DNA from: Sphingopyxis sp. YR583
Lineage (GTDB): Bacteria > Pseudomonadota > Alphaproteobacteria > Sphingomonadales > Sphingomonadaceae
Assembly: GCF_900108295.1 (NCBI RefSeq)
Contig: NZ_FNWK01000001.1
Location: 1,240,001 to 1,304,000 of the forward strand
Length of the DNA stretch: 64,000 nucleotides
Direction of reading: 5' to 3'
Shown: one piece after another, positions 30,990 through 62,412 of the stretch
Layout: each line of letters starts with the position of its first letter
Position numbering within the stretch: position 1 is the stretch's first letter
Translations under genes and position numbers: made by a program
Notes under the pieces: model-generated
What the model saw: the letters and a program-made list of their open reading frames with translations, nothing else
Told to the model about the DNA's origin: nothing
Databases searched by the model: none

Positions 30990-30994
30990 TGCGG

Positions 30995-31020
30995 TCCCCC
31001 GGCGAAAAGCCGGGGTCCAG
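30995..31020. repeat. REP-like palindrome after tldD
   Basis: CCCCCGGCGAAAAGCCGGGG followed by TCCAG, a hairpin of the same family as the repeats at 62003, 62339 and 62385 (one base longer loop). It lies just after the tldD stop codon. Confidence 0.75.
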
Positions 31021-62002: not shown

Positions 62003-62030
62003 GTGAACCCCGGCGAAAGCCGGGGCCCAG
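62003..62030. repeat. Left 28-bp terminal repeat of the GIY-YIG cassette
   Basis: Contains CCCCGGCGAAAGCCGGGG (7-bp stem, GAAA tetraloop) with GTGAA before and CCCAG after. Identical to the copies at 62385 and, inverted, 62339. Lies 13 bp before the nuclease ATG. Confidence 0.9.
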
Positions 62031-62043
62031 TATACCTTGCATC

Positions 62044-62334
62044 ATGAAGCAAGGCTGGATTTACATTCTCACCAACAAGTGCAACGGGACACTCTACATC
62101 GGCGTCACCAGCGACCTCCCGCAGCGCATTGGGCAACATCGCCAAGGGATAATCGGAGGCTTTACGAAGAAATATGGCCTCAAAATGCTCGTCTGGCACC
62201 AGCATTTCGACAATCTCCACGATGCCCGCCGCCGCGAGGTCCAGATGAAGGAGTGGAAACGCGCGTGGAAGATCGAGCTGATCGAGGCGGTGAACCCAGA
62301 CTGGCGCGATCTCTATTTCGAGCTTCTGCGCTGA
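62044..62334 (+). CDS. GIY-YIG nuclease-domain protein
   Basis: A 96-residue protein consisting of the UPF0213/YhbQ-type GIY-YIG domain: WIYILTNKCNGTLYIGVTSD contains the two Tyr-rich motifs (YIL and YIG), followed by RIGQHRQGIIGGFTKKYG (Arg, His), the catalytic Glu in ARRREVQMKEWKR and a conserved NPDW. The reading frame is intact. It is boxed between perfect 28-bp inverted repeats (62003-62030 and 62339-62366) with only 13 and 4 bp to spare. No ribosome site is visible. Confidence 0.9.
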   Translation: MKQGWIYILTNKCNGTLYIGVTSDLPQRIGQHRQGIIGGFTKKYGLKMLVWHQHFDNLHDARRREVQMKEWKRAWKIELIEAVNPDWRDLYFELLR

Positions 62335-62338
62335 CCGT

Positions 62339-62366
62339 CTGGGCCCCGGCTTTCGCCGGGGTTCAC
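62339..62366. repeat. Right 28-bp inverted terminal repeat of the GIY-YIG cassette
   Basis: Exact reverse complement of the repeat at 62003-62030, beginning 4 bp after the nuclease stop codon. Confidence 0.9.
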
Positions 62367-62384
62367 AGACTACCAGCCCCTCTT

Positions 62385-62412
62385 GTGAACCCCGGCGAAA
62401 GCCGGGGCCCAG
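62385..62412. repeat. Third 28-bp repeat, direct copy
   Basis: Identical to 62003-62030 and inverted relative to 62339-62366, 18 bp away, so the last two form a head-to-head pair (BIME-like) between the nuclease gene and ileS. Confidence 0.9.

Follow-up and report, generated by a model that had tools for sequence, protein, structure and literature searches.

Small GIY-YIG nuclease genes of one clade lie between copy-specific inverted hairpin repeats in Sphingopyxis and other Proteobacteria

Results

A small nuclease gene is enclosed by identical inverted hairpin repeats

The window, by which we mean the whole stretch of 64,000 nucleotides analysed from Sphingopyxis sp. YR583, contains a gene for a small GIY-YIG nuclease that is enclosed by two hairpin repeats and followed by a third. 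The features of the locus, together with one outlying repeat, are the following.

62003-62030, + strand: left flanking hairpin repeat, tail CCCAG directed towards the gene; exact inverted partner of 62339-62366
62044-62334, + strand: GIY-YIG nuclease gene, 96 amino acids, stop codon included; open reading frame with a PF01541 match
62339-62366, - strand: right flanking hairpin repeat, inverted, tail directed towards the gene; identical to the left copy
62385-62412, + strand: third copy, also identical, facing the right flanking repeat head to head across 18 bp
30994-31020, + strand: degenerate relative of the repeat, tail TCCAG, with no adjoining nuclease; part of the repeat family, not of a cassette

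The 28-bp repeat (GTGAACCCCGGCGAAAGCCGGGGCCCAG) is identical in all three copies at the nuclease locus. Gaps of 13 bp and 4 bp separate the gene from its left and right repeats, respectively, giving a unit of 364 bp, all exactly as the first-pass annotation had described it, and the head-to-head copy that it had placed 18 bp further on was confirmed. Direct reading also bore out the proposed stem, CCCCGGC/GCCGGGG with a GAAA loop; its 7 bp are all G-C, and the repeat begins GTGAAC. The cassette is bordered on one side by a GDPD-family gene, itself preceded by ribF (riboflavin kinase/FAD synthetase), and on the other by a gene for a class I tRNA synthetase, which we read as ileS. In addition, a TATAAC/TATACC-like motif was seen ahead of the start codon in the window (62031-62043) and in the same stretch of L033-L043, several close copies; it is perhaps the -10 box of a leaderless transcript.

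The sole Pfam match of the encoded protein was PF01541 GIY-YIG (E 3.8e-16), and the nearest solved structures by sequence profile were 1zg2 (E 5e-8) and 1ywl (E 1.2e-5). Six residues, Y7, Y18, R28, H32, E65 and N84, were invariant in an alignment of 21 relatives, and five of them, Y7, Y18, R28, E65 and N84, are presumably the catalytic residues of GIY-YIG enzymes. The domain and the conserved Tyr, Tyr, Arg, Glu and Asn place the protein in the GIY-YIG superfamily.

The claim that related palindromes occur elsewhere in the window held only weakly. An 18-bp core with up to 3 mismatches matched the window five times where 0.49 matches were expected, a number reached by none of 100 shuffles; of the two matches beyond the three copies at the locus, each with 3 mismatches, that at 30994-31020 resembles a relative of the repeat but the other does not. 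Throughout the window genome there were nine exact hairpin cores in all, and 48 places matched the core with up to 3 mismatches, compared with 25 for the reversed pattern. The same genome gave three hits to the nuclease protein. The better of the two other hits (C5:179928) is 46% identical and is enclosed (C5:178428-181664, local 1446-1790) by a different inverted repeat, CCTGAGCTTGTCGAAGG, the right arm of which falls within the 3' end of the reading frame of this copy.

Flanking repeats accompany one clade of small GIY-YIG nucleases

A nuclease match was present in 69 of 80 Sphingopyxis genomes, with up to 12 matches per genome, and we scored the best 60 regions, comprising 66 copies, of more than 150 matches listed. 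For each copy, the 200-bp left flank was locally aligned with the reverse complement of the right flank, using a cut-off score of 14. Among these best-ranking copies, 58/66 had flank repeats that reached the cut-off, compared with 6/1320 random intervals, mostly coding, from the same nuclease loci. When other genes at these loci, delimited with a simple greedy ORF caller, were scored in the same way, the cut-off was reached by 1/484 of those not adjoining the nuclease and by 4/98 of those adjoining it. Eight of ten further loci from a named scan, seven of the ten being rhizobial, also reached a score of 14. The Sphingopyxis loci L122-L126, already in the set, were left out of the flank scoring, the comparison of flank homology and the orientation counts.

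A profile built from 21 sequences extended the search, matching 187/387 genomes of the class and 227/397 genomes of the phylum, many of the latter through weak, single-copy homologues. Flank repeats were found in 21/30 of the best-scoring copies at class level (20/29 without the window's own) versus 0/600 intervals, and at 15/23 of the best-scoring loci at phylum level (13/21 without the two Sphingopyxis copies, one of which was already among the 66) versus 1/460 intervals. Five multi-copy genomes contributed 22 copies, three of them also counted at class level, and 10/22 had a flank repeat versus 0/440 intervals. No flank repeat above the cut-off accompanied 8/66 Sphingopyxis, 9/30 class-level, 8/23 phylum-level and 12/22 multi-copy copies, and because the fetched copies came from the top of ranked lists, all these fractions apply to the stronger matches. 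Distant homologues from 30 weak-match genomes, which we take to be of the UPF0213/COG2827 type, had a flank repeat in 0/30 cases. The pairing is therefore a feature of one branch of the family and not of all small GIY-YIG genes.

Automatic classing of the orientation of the repeats around the 66 copies gave 46 with tails facing inwards, 7 with heads facing inwards and 13 unclear, and 5/7 of the heads-in calls came from one cluster in which an outer repeat pair had been picked. At L236 (G429:C4) the repeat heads face the gene, opposite to most copies, in a genome that also has two normal copies. A further locus, L137 (2590-2950) in a Burkholderiales MAG, was read by eye, outside the scripted scoring: a CGTCATTCCGG...ATCCAG repeat pair encloses a GIY-YIG gene that looks broken, with no ORF listed, in the interval between genes read as trpG and trpD.

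Each nuclease copy has its own repeat type

The repeat cores vary among the Sphingopyxis copies, with CCCCGGCGAAAGCCGGGG, CCCCTGCGAAGGCAGGGG, CCCCGCGAAGGCGGGG, TCCTGCGAACGCAGGA, TCCCGCGAAAGCGGGA, TCCCAGCGAAAGCTGGGA and CCCGGACTTGATCCGGG among them. Within the 21 genomes with at least two fetched copies, the two flanks of one and the same copy reached a score of 16 in 39/46 cases, compared with 3/58 when the left flank of one copy was paired with the right flank of another from the same genome. The association of nuclease and repeat is thus copy-specific as well as clade-specific, and a chance or one-off pairing is rejected by the flank counts against the interval, gene and swap controls. The first-pass annotation had made its case depend on whether paralogues of the nuclease are flanked by the repeat; they are indeed flanked by repeats, but by repeats of another sequence than that in the window.

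The sucD-sucA locus (gene names by reading) holds two nuclease clades, in different genomes. The first clade has CCCCTGCGAAGGCAGGGG in 8/8 copies, and the second has CCCCGCGAAGGCGGGG in 6/6 copies, 4/6 of them at a score of at least 14. In the second-clade copies L073, L075, L076 and L077, a right-hand repeat resembling that of the first clade is kept beside sucA, and the locus reads as one cassette apparently replaced by another.

In some lineages the outer repeat ends mark the borders of the unit, which seldom changes place in Sphingopyxis

Five Sinorhizobium/Ensifer copies lie at unrelated loci, with no homologous flanks within 2.5 kb, and align solely from the head CGTCATCCTCGGGC (GGTC in one) to ...GAGGATGAC; among the five, degeneration or rearrangement affects one left repeat and one right repeat. 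G429 has two copies that share 78.5% identity across 405 bp; their outer repeat ends agree, whereas the sequences around them differ. The accD-folC interval of G018 (genes named by reading) holds a unit of 367 bp, and at this site the unit is absent from 8/8 aligned relatives, among them G000, the window genome, which have a short uninterrupted gap and no repeat. Among the matches listed, the accD-folC junction was matched in one piece by at least 13 of 80 genomes and in two pieces, roughly 100-150 bp apart, by several others. Reading of the accD-folC site, which has diverged, revealed no target-site duplication. In these relatives of the window copy (rhizobial, G429 and accD-folC), the outer ends of the repeats are the borders of the unit, as are the terminal inverted repeats of insertion sequences and MITEs.

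By their flanks, the 66 Sphingopyxis copies grouped into 10 clusters (16, 14, 11, 10, 5, 4, 3, 1, 1 and 1 copies), which led us to reject frequent hopping of the cassette as the main picture in this genus. The 11 closest relatives of the window copy form a single flank cluster, at the window's own locus. Of 30 GDPD-ileS loci, 25 had a readable gap, two of the others having no recognised end, and the cassette occupied 7/25 with the window included, that is, 6/24 relatives; the other 18 gaps hold different sequence, 136-341 bp up to a motif inside ileS, which in G002 includes a gene-free pair of repeats placed head to head. A search for orthologous loci lacking exactly the 364-bp unit had been suggested as a check, and no clean empty site for the window copy was found among the 25 readable GDPD-ileS gaps. 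Related genomes that carry the gene at this locus likewise hold it between repeats, and the refuting conditions named in the first-pass annotation, on paralogues and on this locus, together gave a divided outcome.

The infB-rbfA interval was considered as a clean empty site for L091 and rejected, as most of the relatives read have a native hairpin there, within an interval of some 58 nt. This native GC-rich hairpin, for example TGCACCCCCGCCGGCGCGGGGGTGCA, was seen at L292, L295, L298, L300-L303, L306-L308, L311 and L312, and may or may not be a relic of a repeat.

As for the proposal of a mobile cassette, then, it is upheld by the rhizobial copies, G429 and accD-folC, but not by the window copy or most Sphingopyxis copies, which are stationary. 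The perfect identity of the repeats, from which recent movement had been deduced, does not lead to that conclusion, because concerted evolution or selection would also yield identical copies. To judge from these alignments, the unit can move as one piece, seldom doing so in Sphingopyxis, where the gene is mostly stationary while the repeats disperse.

Repeats are dispersed and more numerous in genomes with a matching nuclease

The core of the window repeat, counted as a 19-mer with at most 1 mismatch in the 80 Sphingopyxis genomes, occurred 0 to 121 times per genome, while the reversed core occurred 0 times in 79/80 genomes and once in the remaining one. With a close nuclease defined as at least 72% identity over at least 90 residues, the median was 35.5 repeats in the 12 genomes with such a nuclease versus 11 in the 68 without (p 3.3e-4, uncorrected for descent). 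Some genomes without a close nuclease are nonetheless repeat-rich (G042, 121; G044, 96; G061, 77; G069, 73), and for these it has to be assumed either that the enzyme was lost or that something else spreads the repeats.

Neighbouring repeat pairs in G003 and G004 had their tails facing inwards, the orientation of the cassette, in 24/24 cases, although the two genomes are near-identical and together scarcely amount to more than one. A comparison of these two genomes for differences in repeat-pair insertion was abandoned, since they are too alike. The 16 repeat pairs fetched from G007 have cores 43-61 bp apart, and their spacers and outer parts are partly conserved. These pairs (L271-L286) appear to lie within longer composite elements, some beside a second repeat type; the idea that the free elements of G007 are simple repeat pairs was rejected on this account, and they were left out of the search for empty sites.

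The head variant of the cassette (TGTT versus GTGA) was also the commoner variant in the genome in 10/12 genomes, with the cassette's own copies counted. For G036 this agreement extends to the GTG start alone. In G076 the counts go the other way (7 to 4), and G000 tells nothing either way, since the cassette itself supplies three of the four copies there. Such agreement could be explained by concerted evolution among the repeats without any enzyme. In 692 kb of fetched sequence lying more than 1 kb away from any nuclease, 6/7 exact cores occurred, in 1 to 13 copies, with 0 for the reversed controls; the seventh core, TCCTGCGAACGCAGGA, was absent from this sequence.

Discussion

The first-pass annotation had likened the locus to REP-associated tyrosine transposases, and this likeness is sustained by flanking far above the controls, by its confinement to one nuclease clade and by copy-specific repeat types. 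As in RAYT (TnpA-REP)/REPtron/REPIN systems, the gene for a small nuclease stands between inverted short hairpin repeats, repeat pairs without a gene are scattered through the genome, inheritance for the most part leaves the gene at a fixed position, and repeat types are gene-specific. Like a REPtron, the gene lies between inverted repeats that are also dispersed, with nine exact copies in the window genome. The differences are that the enzyme is GIY-YIG (PF01541) and not an HUH/Y1 transposase of the IS200/IS605 group, and that the GTAG tag is missing from the cassette repeats. Given its enzyme, the cassette is not a RAYT, though its anatomy matches that of a REPtron.

A counterpart of the repeats themselves was described by Di Nocera et al. 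in 2013. In the portion of that survey available to us (PMC3733652), CGTC REPs are said to 'apparently lack a dedicated transposase', and GTAG REPs to have RAYT; CGTC REPs have a CGTC head (variants TGTC and CCTC), an 8-9-bp stem that opens with two A-T positions, a 4-5-nt loop and a CCA tail, and they are mostly alphaproteobacterial, with Neisseria dRS3 and Rickettsia RPE-4/RPE-6 among them; the survey reports no association of these repeats with transposase genes. GIY-YIG proteins go unmentioned in the same portion of the survey (PMC3733652), and no link between GIY-YIG and REPs was found in open-licence PMC literature on REP, dRS3 and RAYT. Many cassettes, including that of the Burkholderiales MAG, have repeats that share this head and tail, with a short stem and a loop of 4-5 nt; the CGTC head itself is present in many relatives' cassettes, for example L129-L132, but not in the window repeat. 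The latter fits in its GAAA loop and CCCA tail and departs from the type in its 7-bp stem. Its GTGA head and all-G-C stem make it a divergent relative of the CGTC REPs.

Several other explanations have to be weighed. UPF0213/COG2827 small GIY-YIG proteins (1zg2, 1ywl) likewise consist of a single GIY-YIG domain, but none of the 30 distant homologues taken as this type had flanking repeats. The gene might nevertheless encode an ordinary repair or housekeeping nuclease, with the repeats inserted alongside or acting as transcription signals, and, in the part of the source available, Caulobacter crescentus has three small COG2827 genes that are candidates for UvrC-like repair, one of them with an SOS box (PMC1839093). 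A repair role would have to contend with the finding that other genes at the nuclease loci are not so flanked (1/484), with the unflanked distant homologues (0/30), and with every copy having its own repeat, matched on both sides, and we regard it as very unlikely. A conventional transposon, in which the repeats would be the terminal inverted repeats of a very small element and the dispersed pairs would be MITEs, that is, deletion derivatives, appears to us similarly improbable. It would accommodate both the coincidence of the outer repeat ends with the unit borders and the empty site at accD-folC, but a full hairpin, complete with head and tail, forms each end, reading of the diverged accD-folC site showed no target duplication, and the gene hardly moves in Sphingopyxis. 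In addition, GIY-YIG enzymes are hydrolytic nucleases and are not known to act as strand-transferring transposases.

Homing endonucleases such as I-TevI have a GIY-YIG domain too, and a process of the homing type, in which the nuclease would cut repeat pairs or repeat-like sites elsewhere and break repair with the repeats as arms would copy the gene as the selfish unit, seems unlikely to us. Beyond the shared catalytic domain, and a gene standing at a site where relatives lack it, a group I intron endonuclease model of NCBIfam gave a weak match in 7/21 members (the window protein fell below the cut-off), and the sucD-sucA locus looks as if a nuclease of one clade had taken the place of another, leaving the old right-hand repeat behind. 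What separates the cassette from the I-TevI type is that there is neither intron nor intein, that 96 residues hold no separate DNA-binding domain and that the gene is flanked by its own hairpin repeats. Moreover, the relatives at accD-folC have no repeat at the site, and homing by itself does not explain tens of gene-free repeat pairs.

On balance, we consider it probable, though by no means assured, that the protein is a REP-dedicated nuclease that works like RAYT with an unrelated fold, and that it is one member of a widespread system of a repeat plus a dedicated nuclease; this reading is drawn from sequence comparison. The small GIY-YIG enzyme would recognise hairpin repeats of its own type and cut them, probably when replication exposes them as hairpins or cruciforms, and host repair or replication would then copy the repeat to new places, often as an inverted pair. 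The cassette, a repeat pair with the gene inside, would be the autonomous form and the short gene-free pairs the non-autonomous form. A hydrolytic GIY-YIG nuclease would here stand in for the HUH tyrosine transposase of REP/RAYT systems. GIY-YIG enzymes act by hydrolysis with no covalent intermediate, and such a reaction would leave the joining step to the host. In our view the enzyme would bind its repeat and cleave it, and the repeat would spread as a consequence.

More tentatively, with about as much to be said against the proposal as for it, the clade of small GIY-YIG nucleases may be the missing enzyme of CGTC REPs across Proteobacteria, each lineage with its own hairpin and with dRS3 and RPE as products or relics, and may thus constitute a second, independent class of REP-making enzymes.

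Taken together, our results put forward a clade of small GIY-YIG nucleases, present in many genomes, as a concrete candidate for the agent behind the spread of CGTC REPs. If this is true, an unrelated nuclease fold would have come to live with hairpin repeats in the same manner, and how CGTC-type repeats originate could be put to the test with a single protein of 96 residues and an oligonucleotide of 28 nt.
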